From Anaerolineales bacterium (GTDB lineage Bacteria; Chloroflexota; Anaerolineae; Anaerolineales; UBA11579): a stretch of DNA of 64,000 nt. Below, piece after piece: positions 2,088 to 51,491 of this stretch. Location: the NCBI GenBank assembly GCA_019637755.1, contig JAHBVC010000001.1:558001-622000 (forward strand), written 5' to 3'. The notes under the pieces are model-generated. The model was not told the DNA's origin. It made no database searches and was given only the letters and a program-made list of their open reading frames with translations. Position numbers and translations under genes: made by a program. Every line of letters starts with the position of its first letter. The stretch's first letter is position 1.

Positions 2088-4234
2088 AACAGCCCGGCCA
2101 GGCTACTACTGGCCAGGCCGAGATAAAAACTCAGCGGGCGATATACAAACTCGAGCTGGTGCTCGCCCGCGGGCAGCTCCACCGCGCGGAAGACTCCATA
2201 CGCCGGGCTGATATCCGCCGGGGCGCCATCCAGCAGAGCTACCCAGCCGGGATAGTACGTATCCGCTAGCAGCAGCCAGCCGGGCTCACTGGCCAGGCTG
2301 TGCACTGTCACCCGGTTGGCACTGCTGTGCACGAGCGCCAGCTTTGCCTCCAAGCTACAGGCGGGCGCCGGCAGCACCACCGGCGCGGCCAGCGCGCTGG
2401 GCAGCGGGCAGCGATAGGCTTGCACGCGCGGCAAGGCGGGCACCGGCTCAAAGCCCACGGCGCCATCTGCATCCACATGCTGGCGCATACTGACGTTCAT
2501 TAGCGCCAGCATGCCAGCCTGCGTGGATGGCGCGGCAGCCTCCAGCGCGGCGATCCATTCTACATATCCGGCTGGCAGCAAAGGATCAAAGTTGTTGGCG
2601 CTGGCAATCGGCGCTAGCAAGCCGGTGTTGGGCAACAGGCTGGCGCGCACCGCCTCTGGCGCCGCGCTACTAAACGTATCGAAGCGAAAAAGCTGCTCAA
2701 ACTTGAGGCGGCGCTCATCCTCCGCCGGCAGATAGAGGCGGCCCGGCTGTAACTGCGCGCCCACTGCGGCTGGCAGCGGCATGGCTCGATACACCGCCAG
2801 TGGCGCAGCAGGGTTGAGCCCCCAGCCCGCCGCCAGCAACTCGCCCGCCACGATGAGCGCCAGCAGCCAGCTGCGCCGCGGCTCCGGCAGTTGTGCGGCG
2901 CGCAGCTGCAGCACGCTGAGCAGCAGCAGGCTGACGCCCAGCCACACCATCGCCTGGCTGTAACTGGCTGGAAAGCTAAATTGCCCCGCGCGGCGCAGAG
3001 CCTCGGCGGCCAGACCCCCCAGGATCACGGCCAGCGCCCCGGCCACCGCCAGCCGGCTCCAGTACAGGCTGCGGCCTTGCGGCGGGCGCCAGGCTTGTAC
3101 GCCCAGGCCAGCCAGCAGGCTCAGCGCGAACACCGCCCACACGCTAAAGCGCGTGGGTGCCTGGAACATATCAAAGCTGGGCACGTGCGCGAAAAGCCAC
3201 GGGAATAGTGGTGTGTGCGCCCCTAGCGCCAAGCATAGCGACACCACCACGACCGCACCCCAGAACCAGGCCTGCGCCCGCGGCTTGGCGCGACGCAAGG
3301 CTAGCAGCGCCAGGAATAGCGGCCCTAGGCCGATGAATAGTGCATCTTCCCAATAATTTCCGTAGCCGGAGAAATTGCCCAGTGCTGGGTTGCCAAACAG
3401 ATTGGGCGCCAACAGGGTCAGCAGGCGCCAGGGCCACAGTGAATAGGTCAGCGCAGTGGTCGGGTCAACCTGGCTGGCGCGTGAAGAGTGCAACAAGTAC
3501 TCCGCCGTGGGCAGCCACTGCACTGCGCTCAGCGCCAAGGCCAGCAGCCCCGCCAGCACAAAGCTGCCCAGGCGCCGCCAACGCCCGGCCTGCGGCCAGG
3601 CCCACAGCAGCAGGCAGGCCGCCGCCAGCCACAGGCTATACCAGGCCATCTGCGCGTGGCCAGCCAGCCATTGCAAGCCCAGCAGCCCCGTCAGGCGCAA
3701 CACACTGCGCCGCTCGGGCTGCTGTGCCAGCCGGTAGACCGCCAGCAGGATCCAGGGCAGCCAGGCCAGGCTGGCATTGATGCTCAGAAAATGGGCGCGG
3801 CTCACCAAATAGCCCGAGAGCGAAAACGCCAAAGCCGCTACCACCTGCCCGCTCTGCTGCACCCCCAGGGCGCGCAGCAAGCGCTGCATGCCCAACCCGG
3901 CCAGCGCCAGGTGCGCCGCCACTAGCACGGCCTGCCCCCAGGCCAGCAGTGGCAGGCCGCCCAGCGCCGCCAGCACAAAATACAGCCAATGCGGCGGGTA
4001 CATCAAGCCGGATTGATAGTTGGCCAGCAGTGGCGCACCCATGCCCAGCAACGGATTCCACAGCGGCAGCTCGCCCTGGCGCAATGTTTGCCAGGCTTGC
4101 CACCACCAGGGCACAAATTGTGTCTGTGGCGTGCCCCAATACAAGGCCTGGCCGCGCAGCCACACTGGCGCCAGCAAGACGAAGGGCGCCAGCCACACAA
4201 GAATTTGTGGGCTTAGGCGAAGGCGGGCACGCAT
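2054..4234 (-). CDS. YfhO-like membrane protein
   Basis: A 726-residue protein with a long multi-spanning N-terminal part and a soluble extracytoplasmic C-terminal part (about residues 500-690) before a last hydrophobic helix. The first loop reads PQTQFVPWWWQAWQTLRQGE then LPLWNPLLGMGAPL, the typical N-terminal signature of the YfhO family. In Firmicutes, YfhO proteins take part in glycosylating teichoic acids. They are treated as GT-C-like transferases using undecaprenyl-phosphate sugars. It starts with ATG at 4234, six bases after TAGAAT, and lies nine bases from the stop of the upstream gene. The substrate here is unknown. Confidence 0.8.
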   Translation of the reverse strand: MRARLRLSPQILVWLAPFVLLAPVWLRGQALYWGTPQTQFVPWWWQAWQTLRQGELPLWNPLLGMGAPLLANYQSGLMYPPHWLYFVLAALGGLPLLAWGQAVLVAAHLALAGLGMQRLLRALGVQQSGQVVAALAFSLSGYLVSRAHFLSINASLAWLPWILLAVYRLAQQPERRSVLRLTGLLGLQWLAGHAQMAWYSLWLAAACLLLWAWPQAGRWRRLGSFVLAGLLALALSAVQWLPTAEYLLHSSRASQVDPTTALTYSLWPWRLLTLLAPNLFGNPALGNFSGYGNYWEDALFIGLGPLFLALLALRRAKPRAQAWFWGAVVVVSLCLALGAHTPLFPWLFAHVPSFDMFQAPTRFSVWAVFALSLLAGLGVQAWRPPQGRSLYWSRLAVAGALAVILGGLAAEALRRAGQFSFPASYSQAMVWLGVSLLLLSVLQLRAAQLPEPRRSWLLALIVAGELLAAGWGLNPAAPLAVYRAMPLPAAVGAQLQPGRLYLPAEDERRLKFEQLFRFDTFSSAAPEAVRASLLPNTGLLAPIASANNFDPLLPAGYVEWIAALEAAAPSTQAGMLALMNVSMRQHVDADGAVGFEPVPALPRVQAYRCPLPSALAAPVVLPAPACSLEAKLALVHSSANRVTVHSLASEPGWLLLADTYYPGWVALLDGAPADISPAYGVFRAVELPAGEHQLEFVYRPLSFYLGLASSSLAGLLCLVLWRRTPR

Positions 4235-4240
4235 GACACT

Positions 4241-4246
4241 ATTCTA
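4241..4246 (-). promoter_or_regulatory. Leaderless-type -10 element before the YfhO-like gene
   Basis: On the minus strand TAGAAT is followed by six bases (AGTGTC) and the ATG at 4234. The hexamer overlaps the TAG stop of the preceding gene, so an internal promoter inside the operon is possible. GGGAGG lies further upstream in the tail of that gene and could act as a ribosome site instead. Confidence 0.4.
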
Positions 4247-5827
4247 AGGGAGGACCCGCAGCAGCTCATAGGCACCCACACGCCCATCCGGCTGGAGGTA
4301 CTCAGCGGCCAGTGGCGCCCAGGCGCCGCCGCTCAGTTGCTGCTCGGCTGGCCCCCACATCACGAAAGCGATGGCGTGCTGGCGCAAAAATGCCTGGCGC
4401 TCCAGCGCGGTGCCCTCGCCCTGGTAAAAAGCGCGCACCTGCGCTTCGAGCGCCTCGAGCCCTACGGTTTCCGGCCCGTGACCGATGACGACGCGCACGG
4501 GCGCCCAGGCCGGCAGCGCATTGCCGCCGGCATAGGCCGCCAGCACCGTGGCGCCAGGCTGGCCACGCAACGTTTGAAACAAAGCCACTTCATCCGCCGG
4601 GCGAAAGGCTGGCATGGCGGGCTGAGCGGCCACTTGCAGCGCCCCGCCCCACAGCAGCAGTGTGCTGGGCGCAGCCGTCAGGATCAGGAGCCACAGGCCG
4701 CGCCGCGGCCAGAATGCCGGCGCGGCCTCAAGGGCGCGCAACGCCAGCGCCAGCAGCAGCACCCAGGCGGCTTCGGCGAAGCGGCGTTGCAAGCCCAAGG
4801 GTAGATAGAGCAGCACGGGCAGGCTCAACAGCCAGGCGGCGCTGAAGGTGCGCAATGGCTGCGCCAGCCCGGCCCGCCGCCAACCGGCATAGGCCAGCGG
4901 CAGCAGCCAGCCATACGCCAGCAGGTAGTGCCAGGGATGCGGCGTAAGGATTTGGTTCTGCGCGGCCCAGCCCTGCAGATAGGCATCGTGCAGGTACACC
5001 GCGGCGTTGTATAGCAAGGGGCCGGCCGCGCCGGCCCCGGCCCAAGCGCTGGCGGCCAGCGCGGCACGCCACGGTTGGCGGCTTGCCAGCCGCGCGGCAA
5101 GATAGACCAACAGCAGCACCAAGCCCAGTGCCGCACTGAGCAGGTGCACTAAAGCCAGTGCCAGCCACACTAGCGCCAGCCGCCAGCCGCCGCCGCACCC
5201 CTGCAAAACCGCCAGCAACCCCCACAGCAACAATGCGCGCCCCAGCACCAAATGTGGCAAGCCGAAAGTAGCTAGGTAACCAAAGGTCTCCGGCGAATAG
5301 AAATCGAGCGGCAGGCCGCCCCATAGGTGCGAATAGCCCAACAGCAGGGGCAGCCAGCCCAGCCCGCTGCCCAGCAAGGCTAGCAGCGTGGCCCCGCGGC
5401 GCAGGGCGGGCGTAGCAACAAAATGCGCCACGAAGCGATACGCCGCCGCACTCAGCAGCGCGAGGCTAGCCACGCGCCACAAATGAAATGCGAGCACATA
5501 GCTGCCGTGGCTGGCTGGCCCCAACAGCTTGCCGAGCAGCAGATAAGGCAGATACAGCAACGCGCCGTGTTGCGGCTGGGTACTGTACGCACTACGAAAC
5601 AGCCAATCGCCCGCAGCGCCCTGCAGCATCTTGGCAATGTAAGAGTTGCCATCCTCCACGCCGATCAGGAAGCCAGTGAAACCCGGCGCATTGGTATGCC
5701 AAGCCAATAAATACGGCACACTGGTGAATACGGCGACGGCGGCCGCCAGCCAGGCCAGGGCGCGCCATTCGCGGGCGCTGACCGGCGCGGCGGGCCAGTG
5801 AGCCTGTGGCGCGGGCTCAGGGTTCAT
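4244..5827 (-). CDS. Polytopic membrane protein, GT-C-like (paralogue A)
   Basis: A 527-residue protein with a hydrophobic segment near residues 27-45, then a loop with PGFTGFLIGVEDGNSYIAKM, followed by many membrane segments. It ends in a soluble tail (about 420-527) that contains a small alpha/beta-looking stretch. It aligns by eye with the upstream neighbour, sharing GFL...DG.SYLAKM.QG and the following Y..LLG.L, so the two are tandem duplicates. Its start overlaps the end of that gene by 11 bases. The acidic ED pair in the first loop suggests a GT-C-type transferase. No specific function is assignable. Confidence 0.7.
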   Translation of the reverse strand: MNPEPAPQAHWPAAPVSAREWRALAWLAAAVAVFTSVPYLLAWHTNAPGFTGFLIGVEDGNSYIAKMLQGAAGDWLFRSAYSTQPQHGALLYLPYLLLGKLLGPASHGSYVLAFHLWRVASLALLSAAAYRFVAHFVATPALRRGATLLALLGSGLGWLPLLLGYSHLWGGLPLDFYSPETFGYLATFGLPHLVLGRALLLWGLLAVLQGCGGGWRLALVWLALALVHLLSAALGLVLLLVYLAARLASRQPWRAALAASAWAGAGAAGPLLYNAAVYLHDAYLQGWAAQNQILTPHPWHYLLAYGWLLPLAYAGWRRAGLAQPLRTFSAAWLLSLPVLLYLPLGLQRRFAEAAWVLLLALALRALEAAPAFWPRRGLWLLILTAAPSTLLLWGGALQVAAQPAMPAFRPADEVALFQTLRGQPGATVLAAYAGGNALPAWAPVRVVIGHGPETVGLEALEAQVRAFYQGEGTALERQAFLRQHAIAFVMWGPAEQQLSGGAWAPLAAEYLQPDGRVGAYELLRVLP

Positions 5828-40146: not shown

Positions 40147-41394
40147 TTAGTTCTCGCCCAAGTATTCTTTGAGCTTCTTGCTGACCACGGGATGGCGCAA
40201 GCGGCTGAGCGCCTGGGCTTCGATCTGGCGCACGCGCTCACGCGTCACGCCCATCTTGCTGCCCACCTCTTCGAGGGTGTAGGCCTGGCCGTCGAGCAGG
40301 CCATAGCGCAGTTGCAGGATGCGCACTTCGCGCGGGGGCAGGCCATCGAGCACTTCGCCGAGGTGCTGGCGCAGCAAGTTGTAGGTAGCCGAGTCATCCG
40401 GGGCCGGCGCTTCGTGATCTTGGATGAAGTCACCCAACACGGAGTCTTCTTCATCATCGGTGGGCGTCTCGAGCGAGAGCGGGCGGCGCGCCACCTGGAT
40501 CATATTCTCCACCTTCTTGGCGGGCACATCCAGCGCCATAGCGAGCTCTTCCACCGAGGGTTCGCGGCCCAGGCGCTGGGTGAGCTGGTGCTGCACACGC
40601 AGCAGCTTATTGATCTGGTCACCCATGTGAACTGGCACGCGGATCGTGCGGCCCTGGTCAGCAATCGCACGCGTCACCGCCTGGCGAATCCACCAGGTGG
40701 CGTAGGTGCTGAATTTGTGGCCGCGGCGGTAATCGAACTTCTTGGCGGCGCGGATCAGGCCAATGTTGCCCTCCTGGATCAGATCCTGGAAGGGCACACC
40801 ACGCCCCATGTATTTCTTGGCTACGCTGATCACCAGACGGCTATTGGCCGTGATCAGGTGCTCACGGGCGGCCCAGCCATCTTCAATGTTGAAGCGGTAC
40901 TTGTTGCGCTGGGTTTCGTCCATACGGGCGGTGGCCAGCACCTCGCGGGCGATGCGCCCCTTTTCGATGCGCTTGGCCAGGCTAACTTCTTCGGCGGCGG
41001 TGAGCAGCGGTACGCGGCCGACCTCTTTGAGGTACAGGCCGATCATGTCATCGGTATCGATATTGGCGAGGTAGTTATCATCCGCCTCACGTTGGCGGCG
41101 GCTCTCGCTTTCTTCTTCTTCAATATCGTCGTCGCCGCTCATATCGGCGTCAACGGCGGGTTCCAGGCCCTCAGGGTCATCCACATAGGCCACACCGGCG
41201 CCTAGCAGGGCGGCAAAGGCCTCTTCCAGTTTATCTACATCGCGCTCAGCTTCAGGGAAAAAGTTGAGAATGTCGTCAATCGTAACGTACCCTTGTTTAC
41301 GGCCAAGCTCGATCAAACGGACAACAGCAGGATGGTCACGGTCTTGATCATGATCATTTTCAACAATATCGCTTAGGAGTTTTTCGTTCAGCAC
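40147..41394 (-). CDS. sigA: Primary RNA polymerase sigma factor (RpoD/SigA)
   Basis: A protein of 415 residues if started at GTG 41394 ([11 protein letters not shown]). The frame extends to ATG 41514, but a promoter lies inside that extension and the extra residues look non-homologous. Region 1.1-like residues ([20 protein letters not shown]) are followed by region 1.2 ([20 protein letters not shown]), region 2 ([20 protein letters not shown] then [15 protein letters not shown]), region 3 and region 4.2 ([19 protein letters not shown]). It directs housekeeping transcription. Start codon is the main uncertainty, as no good ribosome site is seen. Confidence 0.93.
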
Positions 41395-41497
41395 TACAGG
41401 ACGCTCTTTTCGCTTGCAGACCTCACCGGGGACGGGGCATAAAAAGCCAGCAACCGGGGGCTGTTGCTGGGCGTTTTTAACTTCCGAGTGGACAGTC

Positions 41498-41527
41498 ACT
41501 ATACAGCGAATCAAAGTGAGGAGTCAA
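41498..41527 (-). promoter_or_regulatory. Promoter of the sigma factor gene
   Basis: Minus-strand TTGACT (41522-41527), an 18-base spacer and TATAGT (41498-41503). It gives a start near 41491 and a leader of about 95 bases before GTG 41394. Confidence 0.6.
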
Positions 41528-47796: not shown

Positions 47797-50700
47797 ATGG
47801 GAACTACAAGCTTACGTGACTATTGTGCTGCCATTGAGCAGCTGATCGACTCCAATCAGGTCGAAGATGCCCTGGCGCACTGCCGCCATGTGCTCAAATC
47901 TCACCCCAAGAACATCGCCATTTACCGTCTGATGGGCAAGGCCTATCTGGAGAGCAAGCGCCATAGCGAAGCCAGCGACCTGTTCCAGCGCGTGCTGTCC
48001 TCGGTGCCGGATGATTTTGTTGCCCACATCGGCATGAGCATCATCCGCGAAGACGAAGGCAATCTGGATGCGGCGATCTGGCACATGGAACGCGCCTTCG
48101 AGTCCCAGCCCTCCAACAAGGCCGTGCAAGGTGAAGTGCGCCGCCTGTATGGCGCACGCGAGGGCTACGAGCCGCCCAAGGTGCGCCTGACGCGCGGCGC
48201 GCTGGCGCGCATGTATTCGCATGGCGATCTGTACAACCAGGCGATCAGCGAACTGCGCAACGCGCTGGCGGAAGACGCCCAGCGGCCGGATCTGCAGGTC
48301 TTGCTGGCGGAGATGTATTTCAAAAACAACCAGCCGGCCGAGGCCAGCGAGGTCTGCACCCAGATCATCCAAAAGCTGCCTTATTGCCTGTACGCCAACC
48401 GCGTAATGGTGGATATCTTGCGCAGCCAGCAACGCGATGGTGAAGCCGGCCCCTACTGGGAACGCGTCACCGAGCTGGATCCTTACGCCGCCCAGGTGAG
48501 CACGCTGAAGGACCCGGAGCAAGTGCCGGCGGAGAGCGTGCAGATCGAAGCGCTGGAACTGGACACGCCGATGCTGCTCGGTGCACCTGCAGCGGGCGAG
48601 GCGCCCGCCGAAAAAGAAGAATTGCCTGATTGGCTCTCGGCCAGCGATAGCGAGCCAGACGCCAGCGTAGAGGGCCGCGAAGATTCGTTGATGAGCAGCC
48701 TGGAAAGCCTGGAGCCCAACCCGGTCGCCAGTGATGTGTTTTCTGACGATGCGGCGCGGGATGAGGGCGAAGCGCCGCTGCCCTTCCAAACCGGCGCGCT
48801 GCAGCCCGATGAGATTCCGGATTGGCTGCGTGAGTTGCGCCCGGCAGGCAGCTCGCCGCCTGCGCCAGCCGCCGAACCGCAGACCCCGCCGGCCAAACGC
48901 TGGACCGAAGAATTCAAGCAAGCCGGCTTCGGCCCCAGCCAACCGCTCGATCTAGGTGAGAGCGGCGAGGCTGACGCCCCGGCCAACGCGGCTAGCGCCA
49001 GCCCCGAGCCTGACCCTGAAGTAGAGCCTACGCGCCACCCCACCGGCTGGTTGCCCACCGGCGAGCTGCGTTGGATGGACACCGCCTTCACCGATGAAGA
49101 TGGCGCAGAAGCGGAACCTGGTGCAGCCAGCGCCCCCCCTACTGGCGATCTGTCTGCTGCGGCCGGCCCATTTAGCGAGGATGCCAACACCGCCAGCGTT
49201 CCTGATTGGCTGGCTGAGCTGAACGAGGCCGAGCTAGCCCATACCCAACCCACCCGGCGCGTTGGCAGTGCGCCCGCCTTCGCCGAGGACGAACCGGCCA
49301 GTGATGACGCCGCGCCGGAACTTGAACACAGCGCTGAGCTCAGCGATAGCCACTCTGGCGCAGATGCGGCAAGCGGCAACGATAGCGATTGGTTGAATGC
49401 CCTGCAAGCTGAAGCTGGCATGCAGGCGGATAGCGAAGCGGAGCCTGAGGCTGCCCCTGAGCCAGACGAAGCCGCCAGCCAGCGCCTCGACGCGCTGACC
49501 AGCCCCACCCCGCAAGACGAAGAGCAAGATACGCTCAACTGGCTGGAGGGCCTGGCGGCGCGCCAGGGCGCGGCCGAAGACGAACTGCTCACTGATCCGG
49601 CAGAGCGCCACACCGACAAGCCCGCCTGGTTGCAAGCAGAGGCGAGCACCCCGGCGGTACCTGCGCAGGAGAACCGCAGCGAAACGCTGAACTGGCTGGA
49701 CGAGCTGGCTGCCGCCGCAAGCGAAGTTGACGCAGCGACCCAGGCAGACGAACTGAGCTTCGAGGCACCCGCCGCGGGCGAAGGCGATGCGGCGCAGGAA
49801 GTAGACTGGCCAACCCGCGCAGGAACGGCAGAGACTGCCTGGGCGTCGGATGCGCAAGAGGGCGAGGCGCTACGCTCGGCTGAGGACACACTGCGCGCCG
49901 AAGATTCACCCTTTAGCCAGGAGCCTGAGGTGCCGGATGAAGCCAGCCCTGCGGCTGACAACAGCAACGAGTACACCACGCCGGGCTGGCTTCGCCAACT
50001 GGCCCAGGAAATGGAAGGCGGCGCGGCACCCAGAAGCCAACCGGTAGCGCCGCGCCCATTGGAAGAGGCGCCCGAATGGCTCAACGAGCTTGACCCGGAT
50101 GCCTTGCCCGCCGGTCCAGCGGAAGAAATGCCCAGCCCGGCGCAATCGCAGCCCGCAGCAGAAGCGTACCTGGCAGATAGCGACGCAACCGCCGACGAAG
50201 AAGAATTTGAAATCGCCGCAGGCCAAAATTCGCCTGCCCGGCAGAGTGCTGATGAGTTCACCCAGAGCGAAGCCCCTCTAGCAGAGGATACGCGGCTGGA
50301 AGAGACATTTAGCGAGAGCTCTTTCAGCGCGGCGGAAGACGAGCCGGACGCGGAAGCGCCCGCGCCGGCAATCGAGCCGCGTTGGGTGCCCGCCCGGCAG
50401 CTGGATGAGCCAGCTGCCGAGAGCAGCACGCCTGACGAAGCGGTCGAGGCCCCGGTGCAGCACGAGGCGGCACCCCGGGCGGACGACTGGCAAGCCAGCA
50501 CAGCAGACCTGGAAGAGGCCGCGCAGCTGCCCGCGCCCATGCGCGCAGCACAACCGGCGGAGCCTAGCACGCAGGCGGAAGCCGAGGCTGAGAGTGAGCC
50601 TGCCCCTGAGCCTGAGCCGCTGGCGGAGCCGGCGTTGGCCGCGGCCAGCGGCGTACCGGCGGCGCAGCCGCCGCGCCGGCGTGCCCGCGGCCTGTCGGCC

Positions 50701-50955
50701 GAGGAGCAGGAAGATCGCCTGGCGCAGGCGCGCCAAGCGCTCAACTATGGCAATCTGGAAGACGCCGCGGAAGGCTACAGCTATTTCTTGCGCCGGCGCC
50801 TGCGCCTGGATGACATCATCGCTGATCTGCGGGCGGCCTCACGGCGCTTCCCGCGTCAGGTGGCGGTGTGGCAAACCCTGGGTGATGCCTATATGCGCAA
50901 CGATCAACTCACCGAGGCGCTGGATTGCTACACCCGCGCCAAAGCCTTGCTATAA
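47797..50955 (+). CDS. Large TPR protein with acidic, WL-motif-rich disordered middle
   Basis: A 1052-residue protein. Residues 1-235 are tetratricopeptide-like helices (VEDALAHCRHVLKSHPKNIA then IYRLMGKAYLESKRH). Residues about 255-960 are low-complexity, rich in Ala, Glu, Pro and Asp, with short Trp-Leu motifs: PDWL at 277, 341 and 469, DWL 531, NWL 581, AWL 610, NWL 632, GWL 730 and EWL 760, often followed by (R/A/N/D)-x-L. Residues 970-1052 are again TPR-like (AYMRNDQLTEALDCYTRAKA). No signal peptide, so cytoplasmic. It may be a scaffold whose WL motifs bind a partner domain. It is monocistronic. A minus-strand frame inside is composition-driven. Confidence 0.85.
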   Translation: MGTTSLRDYCAAIEQLIDSNQVEDALAHCRHVLKSHPKNIAIYRLMGKAYLESKRHSEASDLFQRVLSSVPDDFVAHIGMSIIREDEGNLDAAIWHMERAFESQPSNKAVQGEVRRLYGAREGYEPPKVRLTRGALARMYSHGDLYNQAISELRNALAEDAQRPDLQVLLAEMYFKNNQPAEASEVCTQIIQKLPYCLYANRVMVDILRSQQRDGEAGPYWERVTELDPYAAQVSTLKDPEQVPAESVQIEALELDTPMLLGAPAAGEAPAEKEELPDWLSASDSEPDASVEGREDSLMSSLESLEPNPVASDVFSDDAARDEGEAPLPFQTGALQPDEIPDWLRELRPAGSSPPAPAAEPQTPPAKRWTEEFKQAGFGPSQPLDLGESGEADAPANAASASPEPDPEVEPTRHPTGWLPTGELRWMDTAFTDEDGAEAEPGAASAPPTGDLSAAAGPFSEDANTASVPDWLAELNEAELAHTQPTRRVGSAPAFAEDEPASDDAAPELEHSAELSDSHSGADAASGNDSDWLNALQAEAGMQADSEAEPEAAPEPDEAASQRLDALTSPTPQDEEQDTLNWLEGLAARQGAAEDELLTDPAERHTDKPAWLQAEASTPAVPAQENRSETLNWLDELAAAASEVDAATQADELSFEAPAAGEGDAAQEVDWPTRAGTAETAWASDAQEGEALRSAEDTLRAEDSPFSQEPEVPDEASPAADNSNEYTTPGWLRQLAQEMEGGAAPRSQPVAPRPLEEAPEWLNELDPDALPAGPAEEMPSPAQSQPAAEAYLADSDATADEEEFEIAAGQNSPARQSADEFTQSEAPLAEDTRLEETFSESSFSAAEDEPDAEAPAPAIEPRWVPARQLDEPAAESSTPDEAVEAPVQHEAAPRADDWQASTADLEEAAQLPAPMRAAQPAEPSTQAEAEAESEPAPEPEPLAEPALAAASGVPAAQPPRRRARGLSAEEQEDRLAQARQALNYGNLEDAAEGYSYFLRRRLRLDDIIADLRAASRRFPRQVAVWQTLGDAYMRNDQLTEALDCYTRAKALL

Positions 50956-51035: not shown

Positions 51036-51491
51036 TTGGAACGCAGTTTAGTTTTGGTTAAGCCGGATGGCGTGCAACGCGCCCTGGTGGGCGAGATCAT
51101 TGCCCGCCTGGAACGCCGCGGCCTACGCCTGGCCGGCGCCAAGTTCATGCAGGTGAGCAGCGCCCTGGCTGAGGAGCACTACGCCGAGCACAAGGGCAAG
51201 CCCTTTTACGCGGGCCTGGTGGAGTACATCACCTCAGCCCCGGTAATGGCGATGGCCTGGGAAGGCCCCAACGCGGTAGCGGCCATCCGCCAGACGATGG
51301 GCGCGACGCGCCCCACCGAAGCCGCACCCGGCACCATCCGTCACGACTTCGGCCTGGAAGTGGGCCGCAATCTGACCCACGCCTCAGACAAGCCGGAGAC
51401 CGGTGAGCGCGAAGTGGGCTTGTGGTTCAAGGCTGAGGAGCTGGTGAGCTGGAACCGCGATATTGACAAATGGGTGTTTGAAGGCAGGTAA
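51036..51491 (+). CDS. ndk: Nucleoside diphosphate kinase
   Basis: A 151-residue protein, starting at TTG 51036 with TTGGAGGCACA upstream; no ATG fits. K9 ([11 protein letters not shown]) and the phosphorylated H115 are present. The active-site segment is GRNLTHASD, where most bacteria have HGSD. It transfers phosphate between nucleoside di- and triphosphates. It is monocistronic with a strong terminator. Confidence 0.96.

Follow-up and report, generated by a model that had tools for sequence, protein, structure and literature searches.

Conserved Trp-Leu peptides in two unrelated proteins point to an undescribed peptide-binding network in Chloroflexota

Within a 64,000-nucleotide stretch of DNA from an Anaerolineales bacterium (hereafter, the window), one gene encodes a protein in which two tetratricopeptide repeat (TPR) blocks flank a long acidic region carrying many short Trp-Leu (WL) motifs. 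The question that this locus raises is what such an array might do. Our comparisons point to an undescribed peptide-binding network in Chloroflexota, based on conserved WL peptides in two unrelated proteins, namely this scaffold and a membrane protein encoded elsewhere. No earlier description of a bacterial WL-array scaffold was found in the literature searched, which covered few subscription-journal papers, nor was any description found there of the WL motif, of the Chloroflexota set of TPR, Roadblock and nucleoside diphosphate kinase (NDK) genes, or of DUF6754.

Pfam and AlphaFold2 indicated that the scaffold begins with an N-terminal TPR domain and ends with a C-terminal TPR-like domain, and that an acidic linker of ~700 residues connects the two (Table 1). 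The window protein is a tetratricopeptide repeat protein based on a match to PF14559 (72.4 bits versus a cut-off of 25) and solenoid helices at both ends. Its Pfam matches were to TPR and other repeat-solenoid families only, with no sigma or polymerase domain found in that scan, and Foldseek with the scaffold model returned generic TPR matches only. The N-terminal domain has 19 invariant columns in 52 aligned sequences. AlphaFold2 block pLDDT values were 92–98 for residues 1–230 (followed by 80, 93, and 71 to residue 260) and 94–98 for residues 971–1052. As these high values at both ends enclose values below 50 over most of residues 258–963, the linker is likely disordered between the TPR blocks. 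The original prediction of disorder in this region thus held for most of its length and failed for residues 571–610, where block pLDDT was 85–94. Its description of the region as acidic and rich in Ala, Glu, and Pro was borne out, as Asp plus Glu make up 23% and Ala, Glu, and Pro together 47% of the linker, which has a net charge of −135.

Table 1. Positions in the window of the scaffold gene, its domains and WL motifs, and the downstream neighbour (counts of W are per site in the protein alignment and are upper estimates).
Feature	Position	Strand	Remarks
TPR - acidic linker - TPR scaffold gene	47797..50955	+	ORF, 1052 aa; Pfam TPR families; homologues in 54/61 genomes searched
N-terminal TPR domain, residues 1-255	47797..48561	+	very conserved; predicted strands 3-5, 249-251
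WL motif 1, PDWLSAS, W279	48625..48645	+	W in 39/45 aligned proteins
WL motif 2, PDWLREL, W343, fixed anchor	48817..48837	+	W in 45/45; P341, W343 invariant
WL motif 3, TGWLPTG, W418, not PDWL-type	49042..49062	+	W in 3/45; nearly genus-private
WL motif 4, PDWLAEL, W471	49201..49221	+	W in 35/45
WL motif 5, SDWLNAL, W532	49384..49404	+	W in 41/45
Folded mini-domain, ~40 residues, match 576-614, holds W582 and W611	49522..49638	+	profile E 2.6e-17
WL motif 6, LNWLEGL, W582, inside mini-domain	49534..49554	+	W in 41/45
WL motif 7, PAWLQAE, W611, end of mini-domain	49621..49641	+	W in 42/45
WL motif 8, LNWLDEL, W633	49687..49707	+	W in 30/45
WL motif 9, PGWLRQL, W731	49981..50001	+	W in 40/45
WL motif 10, PEWLNEL, W761	50071..50091	+	W in 37/45
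C-terminal TPR-like domain, residues 966-1052	50692..50952	+	five helices
ndk, nucleoside diphosphate kinase, conserved downstream neighbour	51036..51491	+	PF00334 E 9.9e-55; listed start TTG

Ten WL dipeptides were found in the linker, one more than the nine originally counted, and all ten fall inside the interval 48544-50674 that had been given for the array. Seven of them are WLxxL (residues 343, 471, 532, 582, 633, 731, and 761), in agreement with the claim that several are followed by xxL. Their spacing had been described as regular, but it ranges irregularly from 22 to 98 residues. Residues 244–958 contain 16 Trp, 10 of which belong to WL. Shuffles of the linker at constant composition gave means of 1.19 WL and 0.09 WLxxL, and the observed counts were reached in 0 of 20,000 shuffles. 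DNA tandem duplication was ruled out as the source of the array in the window, as TRF detected 0 arrays in the gene. A short helix was predicted at residues 342–346 in AlphaFold2 models of both the full-length protein and residues 1–356; no clear docking of any WL motif was seen in the AlphaFold models, judged from pLDDT.

Homologues of the scaffold were collected at 99 loci, 64 of which had a complete frame with a length of 700 aa or more; removal of identical sequences left a set of 60, in which near-identical sequences were kept. A scan of named species genomes found 69 loci, with titles that include Anaerolinea, Bellilinea, Longilinea, Ornatilinea, Thermanaerothrix, and Thermoflexus, as well as unnamed Anaerolineales and Chloroflexi. 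Three short or cut TPR frames (L081, L092, and L097) had no WL. Every one of the 60 distinct complete homologues had WL in its linker, with 4–32 copies each and a total of 675 versus 86.4 expected from composition; this total represents 675 of the 1148 linker Trp, the other 473 not being followed by Leu. The consensus in this set was [ED][ED]hPDWLxx[LIM], with acidic residues at −5 and −4 and a hydrophobic residue at −3. Pro occupied −2 in 65% of cases in the scaffold linkers, and Asp or Glu occupied −1 in 64%. Leu, Ile, or Met was present at +4 in 56%, where Leu accounted for 40%, Ala for 13%, and Ile for 11%, and position +3 was mostly Glu, Ser, Ala, Asp, or Gly.

The WL motif is kept while the flanking disordered sequence diverges, as in conserved short linear motifs. 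In comparison with two congeners, identity was 73% and 76% at motif residues and 36% and 35% in the rest of the linker, and the Trp was kept at 10 of 10 sites in each. Among 45 aligned proteins, W343 was present in all, eight other sites in 30–42, and W418 in three, these counts being upper estimates because MAFFT favours aligning Trp with Trp. Tandem expansion of WL copies was seen in some homologues. The original prediction had looked to conservation in both number and sequence, and the two fared differently: copy number varies from 4 to 32, but the sequence and the fixed site at W343 are kept.

Two of the ten motifs, those at W582 and W611, belong not to free peptide but to a mini-domain that is predicted to fold. 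Its consensus was xDxAxAWLESLAAKQGAxEExLLTxPEERxExxPxW, and a strict version of this pattern occurred 68 times in 38 of the 60 scaffold proteins. The module profile had matches in 36 of the 61 genomes and, among the matches listed, all were on contigs that carry the TPR gene when the two were compared by eye. This location, together with its pLDDT of 85–94, suggests that the module is a small folded unit found in the scaffold alone.

WL motifs were not restricted to the scaffold. A general enrichment of [DE]WLxxL in the window's genome was rejected, as there were 80 matches versus 100 for the reversed pattern, but strict PDWL occurred 34 times versus 18 for its control, and the frames around these sites contained only one second array, in a membrane protein. 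The pattern P[DEA]WL had 259 matches versus 111 for its reverse in genome G033 and 242 versus 174 in G222, and further PDWL proteins may be present in these genomes. The membrane protein has 510 residues (locus L195, positions 3915-5444; C1:1217914-1219443 of its own genome), matches no Pfam model, and carries four WL in an N-terminal tail ahead of a hydrophobic segment. Its C-terminal part was found in 37 of 41 genomes. The tails at 30 loci contained 179 WL versus 19.6 expected, with at least two in 29 of the 30; the exception, L220, has a tail that is cut at the contig end. Some homologues start with a zinc ribbon (a weak Pfam match). The WL consensus is the same in the scaffold and in this unrelated protein, with Pro at −2 in 65–92%, Asp, Glu, or Ala common at −1, and Trp followed by Leu. 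Near the membrane segment, the closest site reads [DE]LP[SD]WLQxMRP or similar in most homologues, and the scaffold anchor, EIPDWLRELRP, resembles it. The occurrence of the motif in this family matches what is looked for in docking peptides, namely their presence in unrelated proteins.

At all nine loci examined the membrane-protein gene lies within a cluster of six conserved genes; at the one locus scanned, the products of these genes include one DUF6754 and one MutL/GlmL-like protein. In a sample of 201 genomes from the phylum, the membrane protein was present in 46 (17 read fully and 30 partly, the two groups overlapping). The 17 wider homologues included 14 with 9–69 WL and three with none. 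The TPR gene and Roadblock are both missing from two genomes, G048 and G254, whose membrane proteins nevertheless have three and four WL, respectively. Overall, these comparisons confirmed that the WL array is real, and the observation is stronger than the original prediction could have known; WL arrays were found in all 60 scaffold homologues and in a second family. The original interpretation is supported in part. At the level of sequence there is good support for its suggestion of multivalent binding, as the motifs are kept in a fast-changing linker and an unrelated second protein carries them.

Homologues from the wider phylum sample revealed a variation in the scaffold itself. The N-terminal TPR profile matched 77 of the 201 genomes at E 1e-20 or better, and 20 of these 77 loci were read. 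WL linkers were present in L130 (in which 11 of 11 Trp are WL), L131, L142, and L143. Another seven homologues (L133–L135 and L138–L141) have the layout of the scaffold and similar acidity, and contain 0–1 WL. In their linkers PFSL occurs 10–25 times each and, in six of the seven, LGL[SD]xxE[IVLM] occurs 12–23 times. PFSLxxLGLSxxEI repeats stand in for WL in the linkers of these other lineages, and the scaffold as such can do without the WL motif, because these seven homologues are intact with 0–1 WL. Judging from their layout and size, the L133–L141 and L142–L145 groups probably represent Chloroflexia and Ktedonobacteria. A parallel swap in the membrane protein, which would have linked it to the scaffold, was looked for in its 17 wider homologues and not found, WL being kept there where the scaffold has PFSL. 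Among ten wider scaffold homologues scanned, six (L133, L134, L135, L138, L139, and L140) have a match to Sigma70_r1_1 inside the linker, beside the PFSLxxLGLSxxEI arrays, with scores of 21.9–29.2 bits versus a cut-off of 22.5 that five of the six exceed.

The neighbourhood of the scaffold gene was also found to be conserved. In the 70 Anaerolineae-type loci, window included, ndk is downstream of the TPR gene in 55 (within 500 bp in 54), and several of the misses are on short contigs. It was found in 15 of the 20 wider loci, most of which, where ndk was present, have a Roadblock/LC7 gene between the TPR gene and ndk. The Roadblock identity was confirmed by Pfam (PF03259) for two of the wider-locus genes, and a Roadblock match was present in at least 13 of the 20 wider stretches. 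Roadblock/LC7 was observed beside the TPR gene, mostly before ndk, in L133–L135, L138–L145, L147, and L148. When 45 of the 77 loci were used for a count of neighbours, at least 35 had a Roadblock gene no more than 8 kb downstream of the TPR gene and in the same orientation. No Roadblock gene was near the TPR gene in any of the 70 Anaerolineae-type loci, and the window's genome has two Roadblock genes, both away from it. Over the 201 genomes, 61 have both TPR and Roadblock genes, 16 TPR only, nine Roadblock only, and 115 neither (counts uncorrected for shared ancestry); by family label, Roadblock is present in 17 of 26 TPR families. The gene rpoD neighbours the TPR gene in 39 of the 70 loci, and 28 of 40 members are within 500 bp. 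In the window, RpoD is encoded at 40147-41514 on the minus strand, 6.3 kb from the TPR gene and on the opposite strand to it.

We hypothesize that the WL array equips a cytoplasmic TPR scaffold with multivalent docking peptides for a shared candidate partner, and consider this proposal about evenly poised between holding and failing. The pattern resembles that of docking peptides because a fixed short peptide is present in many copies in a fast-changing acidic spacer, and is shared with an unrelated protein. Each [ED][LIV]P[DE]WLxx[LIM] unit would fold into a short helical turn that is amphipathic, the Trp and the +4 residue lying on one face, and would sit in a hydrophobic pocket of the putative partner; this is suggested by the predicted helix at residues 342–346 and by the spacing of the Trp and +4 residues. 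Presented many times over on an acidic tether, such weakly binding peptides would provide avidity and a high local concentration of the partner, with further components held at the TPR ends. The peptide on the membrane-protein tail would bring the membrane complex to the same partner. We infer that a helix forms on binding, that a single receptor is shared, and that Roadblock and NDK both play a role; the last of these, drawn from gene linkage, points to a guanine-nucleotide-regulated assembly. The N-terminal TPR domain is a natural candidate for the receptor, but it cannot be the only one. Indeed, co-occurrence argues against either that domain or Roadblock as the sole receptor, because G048 and G254 are without both and keep the WL motifs of the membrane protein.

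Other readings of the array differ mainly in what, if anything, the peptides would bind. They may dock in cis or homotypically onto the groove of the scaffold's own N-terminal TPR domain, resulting in autoinhibition, self-assembly, or a condensate, with the membrane tail binding there too. We regard this as possible but unlikely. The strong conservation of that domain is consistent with it, as are the pairing of kinesin light chain TPR grooves with tryptophan-acidic peptides described in the part of PMC6224480 that was available, and the higher block pLDDT at W343 in the 1–356 model (71 versus 63 in the full model). However, 71 is a weak value, homologues from other lineages keep the domain without WL in the linker, and in G048 and G254, which lack the TPR gene, the motif persists in the membrane protein, so binding to the scaffold's own TPR is not the whole story. 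An improbable alternative is that the protein is associated with RNA polymerase or a sigma factor, and that its acidic linker contacts polymerase through Trp and Leu. The frequent proximity of rpoD and the Sigma70_r1_1 matches in wider homologues would fit such a role, but that gene order may be simple inheritance, and in the window rpoD is distant and on the other strand. Moreover, the window protein matches repeat-solenoid families only, Sigma70_r1_1 is absent from the best 25 of 44 families among 45 Anaerolineae-type members, and the membrane protein shares the motif without a known link to transcription.

It is also conceivable, though quite improbable, that the motifs are low-specificity stickers that serve solubility or condensation without a dedicated receptor. 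Variation in copy number and spacing, the tandem expansion of copies in some homologues, and the replacement of WL elsewhere by another hydrophobic motif would all be expected of such a linker. This reading does not account well for the specificity of the motif around and including the Trp-Leu pair and its sameness in two unrelated proteins, for the minority of Trp that lack a following Leu, or for the fixed W343. Chance, or an artefact of an Ala/Glu/Pro-rich and GC-rich frame, has virtually no prospect of being the explanation. The linker is indeed of low complexity and is covered by long antisense open reading frames, but a chance origin was rejected both by the shuffles and by conservation in 60 of 60 homologues.

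In eukaryotes, TPR domains are known to occur with arrays of docking peptides carried on disordered linkers. In the peroxisomal import receptor PEX5, the disordered region carries helical WxxxF/Y peptides, which as an array dock the protein to a membrane machine. PEX5 is the nearest working analogy to the scaffold, although the scaffold is not a member. Like PEX5, which combines a Trp-peptide array with TPR according to the available part of PMC8086558, it has a disordered Trp-peptide array, TPR, and a hydrophobic residue four positions after the Trp. Unlike PEX5, it is bacterial, has TPR at both ends, and has Leu, Ile, or Met at +4, Leu at +1, and Pro at −2; the aromatic +4 residue of WxxxF/Y was not found, as Phe and Tyr are outside the six commonest residues at that position. 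Entries for the PEX5 TPR were among the Foldseek matches of the scaffold model, because of the common TPR fold. In the kinesin light chain system, the peptide is on the cargo and binds a TPR groove. The scaffold shares with it a Trp in an acidic context and a TPR domain, but its motif has additional Pro-Asp and Leu constraints and its receptor is putative. LC3/Atg8-interacting (LIR) motifs have acidic residues before the Trp and the form W-x-x-[LIV], with the hydrophobic residue at +3. The WL motif is similar in that acidic residues precede its Trp and a hydrophobic residue follows, but this residue is at +4 and the +3 position is mostly Glu, Ser, Ala, Asp, or Gly, so the LIR spacing was not found. 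The Roadblock/LC7 gene (PF03259) that other lineages have beside the TPR gene invites comparison with MglA/MglB and conservon-type Roadblock systems, MglB being described as a polarity GAP; the two Roadblock genes of the window's genome are elsewhere.

A broader picture, which we put forward tentatively and with more doubt than confidence, is that of a phylum-wide peptide code based on P[DA]WL, present in arrays that reach 69 copies. This code would join the TPR/Roadblock/NDK scaffold and the zinc-ribbon membrane protein of the DUF6754/MutL-type cluster to one hub, and the result would be an assembly or condensate that is linked to the membrane and regulated by GTP; the exchange of the peptide for PFSLxxLGLSxxEI in one branch of the scaffold would be a natural rewiring. 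If one receptor reads PDWL in two unrelated families, it would provide a tractable entry to the organisation of membrane and cytoplasmic complexes in Chloroflexota, and the motif swap in the scaffold would be a natural experiment on ligand change in multivalent scaffolds.

During these studies we noted two further features of the scaffold gene. An antisense open reading frame of 753 aa covers the linker at 48483-50744 of the window (minus strand), and similar antisense frames over the TPR gene form one cluster present at 58 of the 70 loci; these frames appear to result from codon bias. In addition, PF12836 (HHH_3) matches four of 45 scaffold homologues, with a best E of 1e-19, which may be a match to repeat composition.
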